A DNA stretch of 34,018 bases from Verrucomicrobiota bacterium (GTDB lineage Bacteria > Verrucomicrobiota > Verrucomicrobiia > Limisphaerales > UBA11358). Shown piece after piece: positions 5,503-24,027 of the stretch (positions within the stretch are counted from its first letter, which is position 1; each line of letters begins with the position of its first letter). Under the pieces are notes generated by a model that worked only from the letters and a program-made list of their open reading frames with translations, ran no database searches and was not told the origin of the DNA. The position numbers and the translations under genes are program-made. The stretch is taken from assembly GCA_021324235.1 (NCBI GenBank), contig JAJPJM010000030.1, positions 1-34,018 of the forward strand. The letters run 5' to 3'.

Positions 5503-6191
5503 GCGGTTTGGGTGAACAGGTATTCGGGCAGGCGCGACCGGATTTCCACCAGCCGTTGCAAATTGGCTTCAATCTGTTCAACGGACAGGCGGGTGTTGAA
5601 GGCCAGCGCCAGCGCCTGAAATTCGATTTCAACGCTCAAATCGCGGTTGGCCAGCAGGTATTCCATCATCTGCGCGTTGCAGACGTCGTAGGCGAATTTT
5701 TTGTCCGGCGACCGCACACAGAAGGCCTTGGAGAATTCGGCGGACTCAAACTTGATGTCCTGGTAGCCGAACACCTCGACGACTTTCGTGATCAGATTTT
5801 CGCGCCGGATGGTCAAATCGGGGAAAATCGCCGGGAGCGACAAAATGAAAAAGGAAAACCAGTGATGGTGCGTCTGGCGTCCACCTTTGCCTTCGGTATA
5901 GGTTTCATAGTGATAATCGAACGCCAGCACCTGGTTTCGCTGAAAGGTCCCGGAAAGGACGTTGCAGGCGTAACGGTTTTCGCCTTCGGCCAGTTGTTTG
6001 AGAAAGCCGTAGCGGTCGGCGATTTCGCGATCTTCCGCCGCGCCGAAATCCAGACCCATCCGTTGCGCCAGCTCAAACAGTCCCTCCTGCCGCTTGCGCG
6101 ACTGAATCACCCCGTAAATGGTGCTGATCACGATGATGACAAACACCGCCACAATCACAAATGGCATGATGAATGGCATTTGGATTTGCAC
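5499..6191 (-). CDS. membrane-anchored hypothetical protein, LemA partner
   Basis: N-terminal TM segment, then a soluble domain; 4-nt overlap with the lemA start (ATGA). Confidence 0.7.
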   Translation of the reverse strand: MQIQMPFIMPFVIVAVFVIIVISTIYGVIQSRKRQEGLFELAQRMGLDFGAAEDREIADRYGFLKQLAEGENRYACNVLSGTFQRNQVLAFDYHYETYTEGKGGRQTHHHWFSFFILSLPAIFPDLTIRRENLITKVVEVFGYQDIKFESAEFSKAFCVRSPDKKFAYDVCNAQMMEYLLANRDLSVEIEFQALALAFNTRLSVEQIEANLQRLVEIRSRLPEYLFTQTA

Positions 6192-6361
6192 AGGATTGTT
6201 CTAAACCAAAGTCGCCTGCCGGGCCATTATAATTTCGACCACTTTCCATATACCCACGACTCGCTGGCAGGTGAAACCCACTTTGGGCAATAAATAATTA
6301 TTTGAATCCCGCCGAAAAACGAATACTTGTTGGGCGTTGCCGATTGAATGATTAGCCAAAC

Positions 6362-7642
6362 GTGAAACCGACCGACCTGCGGGGCATCCTGCAATACATT
6401 CCGCAATTCCGCGACAAGACGTTCATCCTTGCGATTGACGGCGCGATTGTCACCGACGAGAACTTTGCCACGCTGCTGCTGGACGTGGCGGTGTTGCGGT
6501 CACTGAACATCCGCGTCGTGCTGGTGCACGGCGCATCGGCGCAAATCAAGGCGCTCGCCGAGGAGCAAAATATTCCGGCGTCCAATCTCGATGGCTCCGG
6601 CATCACGGACGCCGCCACGCTCAAGCTCGCCCTCAACGCTGCCAACCGGCTCACGCACGAAATCCTTGAAGGCCTTTCGGCCAACGACCTGCGCGCCGCC
6701 AGCACCAACGTCATCATCGCGCATCCGGTCGGCATCATCCAGGGGGTGGACCAATTGTTCACCGGCAAGGTCGAGCGCGTGGATGCCGCGCTGTTGCAAA
6801 CGTTGCTGGCGCAGGACGTCATCCCCGTCATTCCGCCGCTCGGGTTCGACGGCGACGGCAAGACGTATCGCGTGAATTCCGACGGCGTGGCGGTGGCCGT
6901 GGCCGAGGCGCTTAAGGCCATCAAGCTCATTTTCATCACGGCGCAGGACGGTCTGGGCTACAATCACCAGCTCATCCGGCAGATGCTGGTGTCGGAGTTG
7001 CAAAATCTCCTGCAACAAAACAGCCCCGGATTTGTTCCGGAAATCCTGTCCAAGGCGCAGCATGCCGCCCTGGCCTGCAAGGCCGGGGTGCCGCGTGTCC
7101 ACATTATTAATGGCAAGGTGGACGAAGGTCTGCTGGCGGAGGTGTTCTCCAACGACGGCATCGGCACGCTCATTTACGCGAACGAATACCAGCAAATCCG
7201 GCCCGCGCGGAAAAAGGACGTGCGGGCGATCCAGTTGTTGACCAAGAAGGCGGTGGAAACGGACGAGCTGGTCAGACGGAGCAAGACGGCCATTGACAAA
7301 AATCTGGGCGATTATTTCATTTTTGAAATTGATAAAAATCCGGTGGCATGCGTGGCGTTGCACGTTTATCCCGAACAGAAAAAGGGTGAGCTGGCGTGCC
7401 TTTATGTGGACTCGTCGCACGAAAACCAGGGCATCGGACGGAAGTTGATCCAGTTTGTCGAAAACAAGGCACGCGAAATGGGGTTGGGAGAACTCATCAC
7501 CCTCTCGACCCAGGCCTTCACCTATTTTCAATCCAAGGGTGGCTTTGCCGAAGGCACACCCGATGATTTGCCGCCCGCCCGCCGCGAAAAATACGAGCAG
7601 AGCGGCAGAAATTCGAAAGTGCTCGTAAAGAAACTGAAATAA
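6362..7642 (+). CDS. argA: amino-acid N-acetyltransferase (AAK kinase-like domain plus GNAT)
   Basis: VVLVHGASAQIKALAEEQ, kinase-like fold, C-terminal GNAT LACLYVDSSHENQGIGRKLIQFVENKAREMG. Confidence 0.9.
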   Translation: MKPTDLRGILQYIPQFRDKTFILAIDGAIVTDENFATLLLDVAVLRSLNIRVVLVHGASAQIKALAEEQNIPASNLDGSGITDAATLKLALNAANRLTHEILEGLSANDLRAASTNVIIAHPVGIIQGVDQLFTGKVERVDAALLQTLLAQDVIPVIPPLGFDGDGKTYRVNSDGVAVAVAEALKAIKLIFITAQDGLGYNHQLIRQMLVSELQNLLQQNSPGFVPEILSKAQHAALACKAGVPRVHIINGKVDEGLLAEVFSNDGIGTLIYANEYQQIRPARKKDVRAIQLLTKKAVETDELVRRSKTAIDKNLGDYFIFEIDKNPVACVALHVYPEQKKGELACLYVDSSHENQGIGRKLIQFVENKAREMGLGELITLSTQAFTYFQSKGGFAEGTPDDLPPARREKYEQSGRNSKVLVKKLK

Positions 7643-14721: not shown

Positions 14722-16101
14722 ATGAACCGCTTTAATAAGCTGGCCATTGACCATCCGGCCGACCTGCGCTTCGGAATCGCCCCCAAACCGTTGACGACCC
14801 GGCAGGGCCTGAAACTGGGCGGCGGAATCGTCTATCCCGAATTAAACTTCACCCTGCCGCCCATGTTTGTGGATGAATCCACGATGCCGGAAGTGCGGGA
14901 GCAGTACCGAGGAATCATTCAGGGCGCCCTGGCCCGCGCGGCGGAACTGGAGGCGCCGGGATTGGTCGTCGAGTTTGAAACCCTGCCGCCGATGACCGAG
15001 CATCCGGCCTGGGGCATCGAGTTGACCCGCATTCTGCTCGACGGCATGGCGGAAGCGCACGCCCGGCACGGCCTCAAAAGCGTTTTGCGCATCACACCGA
15101 ACGACACGCGTGAAATGGAACGCCCGCCCCGGATGCGCAGCGGACCGTTGTTTGAGGCCATGCTGGCCACCTTTGACGGCTGCGCGGCCGCGGGTGCGGA
15201 GTTGTTGAGCATCGAATCGGTCGGCGGCAAGGAAATCCACGACGAGGCACTGATGATGGGCGATCTGCGCGGCGTCCTGTTCGGACTTTGCGTGATGGGC
15301 GTGCGCGACATGCGCTTCCTCTGGACTGAACTCCAACGCATCGCGGACAAACACGGAGTCCACTGCGCCGGCGACACCGCCTGTGGCTTCGGCAATACGG
15401 CGATGGTCCTGGCCGGGCAACAGATGATCCCGCGCGTCTTCGCGGCCGTGGTGCGGGCCATCAGCGCCGTGCGAACGCTCGTGGGTTACGAATGCGGTTG
15501 CGTCGGGCCCGGCAAGGATTGCGGTTACGAAAACCCGATTCTCAAGGCCATCACCGGTTTTCCGATGGCCATGGAAGGCAGGACCGCCGCCTGCGCGCAT
15601 TCGAGTCCGCTGGGCAACATTGCGGCCGCCGCGTGCGACACGTGGAGCAACGAATCCGTCCAGAACATCAAACTGCTCGGCGGCATGGCGCCGACGGTTT
15701 ACGTCGAGCAACTCATTTACGACTGTCGCGTAATGAACCAGGCGCTGGCGGACGGCCGCGACGCGGCCTTGCAGTATCGCAAATGGCTGGTGGCTTCCGA
15801 TGCGGCGCTCGATCCGCAAGCGTATGTGCTCACGCCGGAAAGCGCCGTGGCCATCGCCCGGGTCATCGTGAACGCGCCGAACCATTACGCCGCCGGCCGG
15901 GCCGCCGGCCTGACCGCCGTCAAATTGTTGCGCGACGCGCACCGGGACGGACAGGTCAAAATCCTCAAACGCGAATTGCCATGGCTGGAGCGGATGCAAA
16001 AAACGCTGGAAAGCCTGCCGGCCGGTGAAAACCAGTTCATCGACGAGATGATGGGCGTGGTGGATACCAGCAAGTTCGTCGCGGCCGATTACGAACTGTA
16101 A
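14722..16101 (+). CDS. mtaB: methanol:corrinoid methyltransferase-like protein (MtaB family)
   Basis: FGIAPKPLTTRQGLKLGGGIVYPELNFTLPPM; SIESVGGKEIHDEA; CAGDTACGFGNTAMVLA; VGYECGCVGPGKDCGYENPILKAITGFPMAMEGRTAACAHSSPLGN. Zn-ligand-type Glu/Cys contexts present. Confidence 0.88.
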   Translation: MNRFNKLAIDHPADLRFGIAPKPLTTRQGLKLGGGIVYPELNFTLPPMFVDESTMPEVREQYRGIIQGALARAAELEAPGLVVEFETLPPMTEHPAWGIELTRILLDGMAEAHARHGLKSVLRITPNDTREMERPPRMRSGPLFEAMLATFDGCAAAGAELLSIESVGGKEIHDEALMMGDLRGVLFGLCVMGVRDMRFLWTELQRIADKHGVHCAGDTACGFGNTAMVLAGQQMIPRVFAAVVRAISAVRTLVGYECGCVGPGKDCGYENPILKAITGFPMAMEGRTAACAHSSPLGNIAAAACDTWSNESVQNIKLLGGMAPTVYVEQLIYDCRVMNQALADGRDAALQYRKWLVASDAALDPQAYVLTPESAVAIARVIVNAPNHYAAGRAAGLTAVKLLRDAHRDGQVKILKRELPWLERMQKTLESLPAGENQFIDEMMGVVDTSKFVAADYEL

Positions 16102-22082: not shown

Positions 22083-23099
22083 TCAAAACGCTGTCGGCAA
22101 ATCCAGGGGCATTTCCGAAGCAGTTGGCGGCTCCAAAGTCAGCAGCTGGTCGTGGTCCAGGGAGTTTTCGCAGACGCGGAAGAAGTCCGCCGTGGTCGCC
22201 ACGCGGCGGATGTCGTGCAGGAAACTTCCTTCCACGCCTTCGCCGATGAAGTTCATGAATTTCTTCATCCGTTGCACCTGCGCCGATTCCTGCAGGCTTG
22301 GCGCAATTTCACTTTCCCAAAGCTCGCGCACGTAAGCCAGCACGTCGCGGCCGGCTGGTAATTCGATTTTTTCGCCGCGCAGTTCGGCACGAATCTGATC
22401 GAACAACCACGGGTTACGGATCGCGCCGCGTCCAATCATCAACCCGCGCACGCCGGTTTCCGCGAGCAGTTGTTTCGCCTGCGCCGCGCTGTATACGTTG
22501 CCGTTGGCCAGCACCGGACATTTCAATTCCCGCGCCGCCAGCGCAATCAAATCGTAGCGCACGCCGGGCCGGTACATCTGCTTGACCGTGCGCGCATGAA
22601 TCGTGAGTAAATCAATCGGATGCTTGGCGAACAACGGCAAGAGCTCGTCAAACTCGGCGGGCGACTCGAAACCGATGCGCGTTTTGACCGTGAACGGAAC
22701 CGTCACGGCGTCGCGCAGCGCGCCGAGGATGGCGTCAATGCGTTCCGGCTCACGCAACAGCCCGCCGCCTGCGCATTTGCGATAAACGACCGGTGCCGGA
22801 CAGCCGAGATTCAGATCAATCGCGGCGACGGGATATTTTTGGAGTTGCTTTACCGTGCGGACGAGGGCGGGGATATCATTGCCAATGAGCTGGGCCACAA
22901 CGGGTTGTCTGGTCGGATTCTCGGTGATGGACTGGAGTATCCATTTATCCAGGCGCGAATCACCGTGAACGCGGAAGTATTCCGTCCAATACGCATCCGG
23001 CCCACCGTAACGCGCGATGACACGCATGAAGCTGAGCGTGGTCACATCCTGCATCGGCGCCAGTGCCAACAAAGGCGCGTCGCCGCGGAGCCGGTTCAA
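22083..23099 (-). CDS. dus: tRNA-dihydrouridine synthase
   Basis: LALAPMQDVTTLSFMRVIARYGGPD; AAIDLNLGCPAPVVYRKCAGGGLL; TVKTRIGF; IHARTVKQMY; GLMIGRGAIRNPWLF. True start ambiguous (TTG 23099 or CTG 23120). Confidence 0.92.
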   Translation of the reverse strand: MNRLRGDAPLLALAPMQDVTTLSFMRVIARYGGPDAYWTEYFRVHGDSRLDKWILQSITENPTRQPVVAQLIGNDIPALVRTVKQLQKYPVAAIDLNLGCPAPVVYRKCAGGGLLREPERIDAILGALRDAVTVPFTVKTRIGFESPAEFDELLPLFAKHPIDLLTIHARTVKQMYRPGVRYDLIALAARELKCPVLANGNVYSAAQAKQLLAETGVRGLMIGRGAIRNPWLFDQIRAELRGEKIELPAGRDVLAYVRELWESEIAPSLQESAQVQRMKKFMNFIGEGVEGSFLHDIRRVATTADFFRVCENSLDHDQLLTLEPPTASEMPLDLPTAF

Positions 23100-23128
23100 A
23101 AATGTTTCGGACGGAGTCAGAAATTAAA

Positions 23129-23389
23129 TCAACCTCGGAATTTGTTGTAATCCTCGTGGCTACCGATCCAAATCCATGTGAATTCATCCGGTTTGGAAAA
23201 ATATCCGACGGCGCGATGATGGTCACCAATCCGGACAGAATATAAACCTCGATAAAATGGTTTGAATTGAATGGACGGGTGGCGCGAATTTTTCAGCCAG
23301 AGCAAATAATTTTTGTGGGCCAATTCCTGAACGTGCTGCGGTAATTCGTAGAATTGTTTCCAAAACCGCGCGGAGACTTTGGAAGTCAT
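23129..23389 (-). CDS. RelE/ParE-like toxin
   Basis: FWKQFYELPQHVQELAHKNYLLWLKNSRHPSIQFKPFYRGLYSVRIGDHHRAVGYFSKPDEFTWIWIGSHEDYNKF, RelE-superfamily fold; overlaps the antitoxin stop. Confidence 0.8.
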   Translation of the reverse strand: MTSKVSARFWKQFYELPQHVQELAHKNYLLWLKNSRHPSIQFKPFYRGLYSVRIGDHHRAVGYFSKPDEFTWIWIGSHEDYNKFRG

Positions 23390-23604
23390 GGTTTGCGCGG
23401 CTTCGGAAAATCGCGCAATTTACCGGCGCGCCGCTCGGCGGCGGCTTCGTCCTTGAGCCTGTCGAACTTGCCCGCCGCTGCGTCGGCCTGCATCTCGCGG
23501 TCCCAATCGTCGTCCGTGCGCGGATGCAACAGCGCCTCCAGCTCGCACCGTTCCCGGGGCGAGAGTCGCTCAATCGCTTCTTTGATTTCCGCAACCGTGC
23601 TCAT
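23386..23604 (-). CDS. antitoxin of type II TA pair
   Basis: Short acidic/charged MSTVAEIKEAIERLSPRERCELEALLHPRTDDDWDREMQADAAAGKFDRLKDEA; ATGA overlap with the toxin. Confidence 0.75.
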   Translation of the reverse strand: MSTVAEIKEAIERLSPRERCELEALLHPRTDDDWDREMQADAAAGKFDRLKDEAAAERRAGKLRDFPKPRKP

Positions 23605-23614
23605 ACCGGTTAAT

Positions 23615-23791
23615 CTACCAAATCATTGGAAAATCAGCAAGCGACTGTAGTGCGATAACGTGCATGAAGTTGAGCGTGGTCACGTCCTGCATCGGCATTA
23701 GCGCGAGCGCGGGCCTTCGCCACGAGGCTTCGGCCCCGCAAGCTGGCGCATCACTGCGGAGCAGGCTGGAAAATGTTTCGGACGGCGTCAC
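23615..23791 (-). pseudogene. diverged 5' remnant of dus, now a 58-codon ORF upstream of the TA module
   Basis: VTPSETFSSLLRSDAPACGAEASWRRPALALMPMQDVTTLNFMHVIALQSLADFPMIW* versus intact copy (L)TPSETFLNRLRGDAPLLALAPMQDVTTLSFMRVIARYGG. Confidence 0.82.
23709..23739. repeat. small palindromic insertion inside the dus remnant
   Basis: GCGGGCC-TTC-GCC-ACGA-GGC-TTC-GGCCCCGC; absent from the intact dus at the equivalent site. Confidence 0.65.
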
Positions 23792-23990
23792 GCGGGCGAG
23801 TTTTGGGTAAAGATGAAGGATCCTTTGTCAGGGATAATCTTCGAATTCTAAACCATCAATATGGCACTCAAAAAAACAGGCAAGGCGTTGCATGACCTCA
23901 TATAAGTTCCCAATGCCCACGCGGTCTAGCGCAGGTAACGTCGGCTTGCGACCTTTTTCTTTGTTGTGACAGGATATCGCTTTTGTTCAG

Positions 23991-24019
23991 TTGAACTTGG
24001 CGGCGGCATCGGCTATGGT
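23991..24019 (+). promoter_or_regulatory. candidate sigma70-type promoter for leuC
   Basis: TTGAAC - 17 nt - TATGGT, 8 nt before the ATG. Confidence 0.3.
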
Positions 24020-24027
24020 GTCACTCT

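Follow-up and report, generated by a model that had tools for sequence, protein, structure and literature searches.

Insertion coupled to a long duplication of the target has been described for restriction-modification (RM) systems, which can insert with target duplications of variable length, in the order of 100 bp, unlinked to mobile elements (PMC3874152; PMC3031569); the cases are those of Nobusato (2000) and Furuta (2010), as given in the passages of these two articles that summarise them. Another kind of insertion occurs at dus genes themselves, where the dusA-associated islands, which are driven by an integrase, are typically 30–60 kb long and have attachment repeats of 19–28 bp and use a semi-conserved 21-bp attachment sequence in dusA, enter the 5′ end of the gene (PMC4482086). 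In Microcystis, a ParE/ParD-like toxin-antitoxin (TA) pair is fenced by two 152-bp direct repeats (PMC7935541). The movement of chromosomal TA modules that are not accompanied by a visible mobile element is, by comparison, an old question.

The locus described here, in which a putative type II TA module lies between two copies of a dus 5′ end, has something in common with each of these systems. It resembles the RM cases, in the passages cited above, in being a solitary addiction-type pair with no mobile element and with long, variable target duplications, but the unit here, about 500 bp long, is a type II TA module, so that the dus case would work like an RM insertion without itself being one. 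With the dusA islands it shares the insertion at the dus 5′ end, the displacement of the old 5′ end and the reconstitution of the gene, but it has no integrase, measures 0.5 kb and carries a repeat of ~106 bp. With the Microcystis pair it shares long direct repeats flanking a TA; in Microcystis, these repeats contain an inverted repeat of 16 bp, and PMC7935541 does not present them as a terminal part of an adjacent gene. The mobility passages of the RM review report no such insertion for TA modules, and a full-text literature search, with most subscription papers outside its coverage, returned no TA insertion with a long target duplication. What appears to be new is thus the extension to TA modules of a mode of insertion already known for RM genes, which would place TA modules beside RM genes as addiction units inserting by long target duplication. 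The footprint gives a direct handle on TA movement, since the repeats let one read the boundaries of the unit, the choice of target, the relative age of the insertion and the joining step, and it would explain why housekeeping genes such as dus, an argA-like gene and purL have as neighbours a toxin and a decayed duplicate of one of their own ends.

A TA module between two copies of a dus 5′ end

The window, i.e. the whole stretch of 34,018 nt that was analysed, is a contig of a draft genome of which 3.09 Mb are assembled. The features of the locus, all on the minus strand, are the following:

23791 (−): GTG start of the remnant, with the native upstream sequence kept
23652..23790 (−): left copy of the direct repeat, i.e. 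the dus 5′ remnant, repeated at 23014–23119; its upstream DNA resembles that of relatives
23711..23743 (−): in-frame 33-nt insert within the remnant (codon view), homologous to the dus inserts of G058 and G005b
23605..23651 (−): upstream end of the TA unit, presumed promoter/operator, between the repeat edge and the antitoxin start; non-homologous to dus, and comparable to a segment of ~45 bp conserved in other TA copies
23386..23604 (−): antitoxin, 72 aa, unnamed family; ORF with homologues adjoining related toxins
23129..23389 (−): toxin, 86 aa, PF24732 ParE-like (26.6 bits, cut-off 24.4)
23014..23119 (−): right copy of the direct repeat, i.e. the intact dus 5′ end; DNA repeat with the remnant
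22083..23120 (−): intact dus, tRNA-dihydrouridine synthase family (PF01207, 172 bits; motifs aligned to 1vhn)

The minus-strand order reported by the first-pass annotation, namely dus 5′ remnant, antitoxin, toxin and full dus, is correct, all four parts being present. The repeat copies are separated by 532 bp, which comprise 47 bp 5′ of the antitoxin, the two genes, overlapping by 4 nt, and 9 bp past the toxin stop, and the TA unit measures ~530 bp. Reading of the ORFs in these 532 bp revealed no gene except the TA pair and no transposase or integrase, and the TA unit of the window was found to have no terminal inverted repeat.

The full gene matches PF01207 with E = 1.7e-50; among the solved Dus structures the best match is 1vhn (E = 6.5e-33), the GCP motif (with its cysteine) and the VKTR and IHxRTV motifs are conserved, and the scores lie under the NCBIfam cut-offs of DusA, DusB and DusC, so that the assignment stops at the family. 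The toxin passes the curated cut-off of PF24732 (ParE_like). For the antitoxin, no family in Pfam, NCBIfam or PADLOC scores above cut-off; homologues of it are neighbours of the toxin in the majority of the first 30 related loci. The gene pair is a type II TA module, putative in activity, which has the toxin family, the antitoxin-toxin order and the overlapping genes of ParDE-type modules and differs from them in its antitoxin of unnamed family. When its own genome was searched for further copies, this TA was found as a single copy only, and multi-copy spread within the genome is rejected on this ground.

The resemblance of the remnant to the start of the intact gene holds good: the two share a block of 46 nt (83% identity, 671-nt spacing) and a second of 74 nt (77% identity, E = 1.7e-12), a match that is not due to chance, and the Dus protein search also recovers the remnant (E = 1.5e-4). 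Its length had been put at 58 codons; the start is indeed homologous to dus, but the homology covers only 36 of these codons, whereas 11 correspond to the 33-nt insert and the last ~11 to DNA upstream of the TA. The repeat is 106 bp long at dus and 139 bp in the remnant when its insert is counted, and the intact copy lies flush behind the TA. At DNA level the homology between the two begins at base 2 of the GTG start codon of the remnant. The intact copy starts with CTG ACT CCG (23120), where relatives have GTG or ATG followed by ACT CCG or similar, and dus reads CTG because the junction cuts inside the start codon. The start codon of the remnant is preceded by TCGCCCGC, as in G003 and G005a, and because of this agreement of the upstream DNA the remnant is taken as the old start of dus, still in place.

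The dus reading frame is open from the CTG at 23120, the first conventional start being the TTG at 23099. The distance of about 30 nt between toxin and dus given by the first-pass annotation is right for the first in-frame ATG/GTG/TTG (29 nt from the toxin stop), but is reduced to 8–9 nt if the CTG is the start. A GAGG motif lies in the end of the toxin gene, ~12 nt ahead of the CTG, by means of which translation of toxin and dus could be coupled. On the dus strand, a scan of the toxin-dus gap called no terminator and found consensus promoters not beyond chance.

dus and its surroundings in related genomes

In about 30 relatives dus is single-copy and is not adjoined by a complete TA, and most same-genus genomes searched carry this dus, with 65–86% identity to that of the window. 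G022 is both syntenic and empty. It has leuC, the response regulator and the acetyltransferase in common with the window, with synteny on both sides, and between leuC and dus it carries another gene, no TA and no remnant. This gene is kinase-like, ROK-type by eye; the window is without it and has ~200 bp of unrelated DNA in that position (23800–24020). The dus genes of G022 (L030) and G023 (L032) have a ~35-codon C-terminal insertion near codon 280, which the gene of the window is without.

In the tree of the dus body, the window's gene groups with those of G022 and G023 (support 100/99), which makes a foreign whole dus unlikely. Two options had been left side by side by the first-pass annotation, a duplication on TA insertion and a replacement of the native dus by an incoming segment; the replacement of the whole gene by a xenologous one is rejected by body tree and synteny, whereas the duplication is better supported, by the native upstream DNA at the remnant, the flush intact copy, the empty relatives and the recurrence at unrelated genes that is described below.

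The two copies are diverged, as had been noticed, with a p-distance of 0.219, which equals that between the remnant and G022 (0.219). Of the 320 genomes searched, 3 have the 33-nt insert pattern; apart from the remnant it is confined to the dus genes of G058 and G005b (L041, L039), at the same dus codon, and the intact copy, G022 and G023 lack it. The equal distances and this distribution suggest that the event at dus is an old one. An origin of the insert from a dispersed palindromic element was rejected, as the genome of the window shows no enrichment of the motif (49 occurrences versus 72 of its reverse, with one mismatch) and the pattern is otherwise found in two dus genes only. Remnant, intact copy, G022 and G023 have in common a CTCA(A/G)C state that is rare elsewhere, and the distance of the intact 5′ end from G022 and G023 is not unusual considering the body distances; the tree of the 105-nt dus 5′ ends, taken alone, did not separate duplication in situ from import.

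In G008 (L038, G008:C301), the dus start is directly adjoined by a fragment (~110 bp 5′ of dus) that is similar to the 5′ end of the antitoxin gene and to the DNA preceding it; this may be what is left of a further TA insertion at dus. G005 has two dus genes, one of which (L040, G005:C173) shares its 5′ end and its distance from leuC with the dus of G017 (L056, G017:C36), for which reason one of these two metagenome-assembled genomes (MAGs) may contain foreign contigs.

Direct repeats around other TA modules of the order

Relatives of the toxin were sampled at 117 distinct loci in Limisphaerales (Verrucomicrobia), nearly all of the genomes compared being draft MAGs; a single-protein scan of the named genome collection gave 13 loci, in Limisphaerales or Verrucomicrobia subdivision 3. 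In 30 of 115 loci the left flank of the TA matches its right flank with at least 35 bits, against 5 of 13,340 cross-locus pairs, and at the same threshold the far-flank controls match in 2/115 (far-right) and 5/115 (far-left) cases. With wider windows and at least 40 bits, repeats flank 30/116 PF24732-like, 10/29 PF05016 ParE and 4/29 PIN loci. For the three toxin families together, direct repeats are thus present at 44 of 174 TA loci versus 0 of 119 control places (YbaB/EbfC genes, 0/30; dus flanks of relatives, 0/31; pseudo-units near TAs, 0/58; Fisher p ~1e-11 for all TA versus all controls). Dispersed elements or tandem TAs account for some of the repeats, so that the true fraction of target duplications is below 44/174. 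No flanking repeat is seen at about three quarters of the TA loci sampled; either repeats decay or other routes exist.

In about 20 loci the repeat was read as the end of a gene, and in the identified cases it is the end of the neighbouring gene. Intact targets confirmed by Pfam are ilvD (L240), thyA (L239), dapF (L149), ebfC (L175), rmuC (L207), purL (L353), an argA-like kinase-acetyltransferase (L143), an aminotransferase (L250), a hexapeptide protein (L164) and a nucleotidyltransferase (L257). The argA-like gene of the window itself is the TA-free counterpart of the site occupied in G017 and G021. Away from dus the repeats range from tens to about 400 bp, with identities between copies of up to 100% over 55 bp (L164). 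In the co-directional cases that were read, duplication of a gene start leaves the intact gene 3′ of the toxin and duplication of a gene end leaves it 5′ of the antitoxin, a placement that is expected if the only survivors are insertions sparing the gene. The dus locus is one case of a pattern that recurs in the order.

The extent of the mobile unit can be read from one TA subfamily, which has nine copies (L310–L318) at about seven sites, L310 and L311 being at one site and L315 and L316 at another. Conservation among the nine copies begins ~45 bp ahead of the antitoxin ATG and ends with the toxin stop, the sequences beyond being otherwise unrelated. In repeat-flanked cases, with some exceptions, the left repeat ends mostly 0–80 bp before the antitoxin and the right repeat starts mostly 0–45 bp past the toxin stop, so that the repeats usually abut the TA unit. 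These boundaries, the abutting repeats and the lack of a terminal inverted repeat at the window's unit indicate that the mobile unit is the TA itself.

Origin of the repeats and stacked modules at purL

The reading that we consider probable is that the insertion of a solitary TA unit is accompanied by a long target duplication, variable in length, which regenerates the target gene, the molecular route being one that we can only propose. At dus, a solitary type II TA of ~530 bp would have inserted at the native 5′ end and duplicated ~106 bp of its target; the upstream copy, with the old start codon and the region preceding it, would have been left as a remnant that then decayed, and the downstream copy would have kept dus whole behind the TA, the junction costing the first base of the start codon (GTG to CTG). 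As a consequence dus would presumably depend on the TA transcript, by co-transcription. The repeats may arise at insertion itself, for example by the filling in of long staggered ends, or else the joining step could be template switching during break repair. The TA would then persist because its excision by recombination between the repeats would release the toxin, post-segregational killing discouraging its loss by this path. Since the same footprint is found at many other genes, TA modules of this order would commonly insert with long duplications, and TA gene pairs seem to move on their own. Three features of the RM type are found, i.e. a long variable repeat on both sides, a solitary unit and an empty single-copy target in relatives. 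Common descent of both repeat copies is supported at purL of G017 and by the near-identical repeats, the dus 5′ ends standing at the p-distance given above.

At dus, two points count against target duplication on insertion: the remnant is as far from the intact copy as from G022 and has its insert in common with G058 and G005b, and the neighbourhood has changed too, the gene between leuC and dus of G022 being missing in the window. The equal distances and the 33-nt insert, which neither the intact copy nor G022 and G023 have, are also what keeps some weight on a smaller import, in which the TA and the dus 5′ end would have come from a related strain, by a crossover inside the native dus on one side and an illegitimate join on the other, and in which the native 5′ end would survive as the remnant and the intact gene would have a foreign one, xenology being confined to that end. 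We nevertheless regard such an import as unlikely, because the intact 5′ end is not unusually far from G022 and G023 given the body distances, because it shares the rare CTCA(A/G)C state with the remnant and both these relatives, and because repeats of 95–100% identity at other TA loci would be left unexplained. That the module is what remains of an integrase-borne island, which entered the dus 5′ end, supplied a new one and later lost everything but the TA, would fit the place and the outcome known from PMC4482086, but is very improbable: there is no integrase between the repeats, these measure ~106 bp as opposed to the 19–28 bp of dusA islands, and inserts of the same TA size are found at dozens of unrelated genes, between repeats of various lengths. 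Even less credit is given to a tandem duplication of the dus start that came first, with the TA entering between the copies later as an unrelated event; the sequence of the dus locus alone is compatible with it, but no relative has a duplicated dus start lacking a TA, and repeats adjoin about a quarter of the sampled TA loci compared with none of the 119 control places.

The purL 3′ end has been struck repeatedly by TA modules, namely ParE, DUF4160-type and BrnT. In G026 (L353, G026:C63, 1053–4690), purL is followed by a ParE TA, a 3′ remnant, a pair made of DUF4160 and a 97-aa gene, and a second 3′ remnant. The same 97-aa gene is found in G006 and G017, its DUF4160 partner in G006 being read as an ORF, and G001 carries a BrnT module; in all three genomes a purL 3′ remnant comes after the module (stacked purL modules: L353, L355, L356, L357). 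The two purL copies of G017 are 98.2% identical to each other, compared with 83–91% to other species, which fits a duplication within the genome. The pattern suggests either that insertion took place more than once or that TAs were exchanged by way of the duplicated ends, and part of it may be one old, vertically inherited insertion, because the DUF4160-type module is as diverged as purL between genomes. On a wider reading, which we put forward tentatively as a possibility, type II TAs of many families would be recombinase-free mobile cassettes, and the long duplications at gene ends would serve as homology arms for TA exchange and stacking; the purL 3′ end, with its ParE, DUF4160-type and BrnT modules, two of them in tandem in G026, is an example to which it would apply. 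In G006 (L354, G006:C95), purL 3′ fragments at 6161–6853 and 14871–14945 adjoin ParE toxins on a contig without purL; these fragments may continue an array, or the TAs may have moved together with a fragment.
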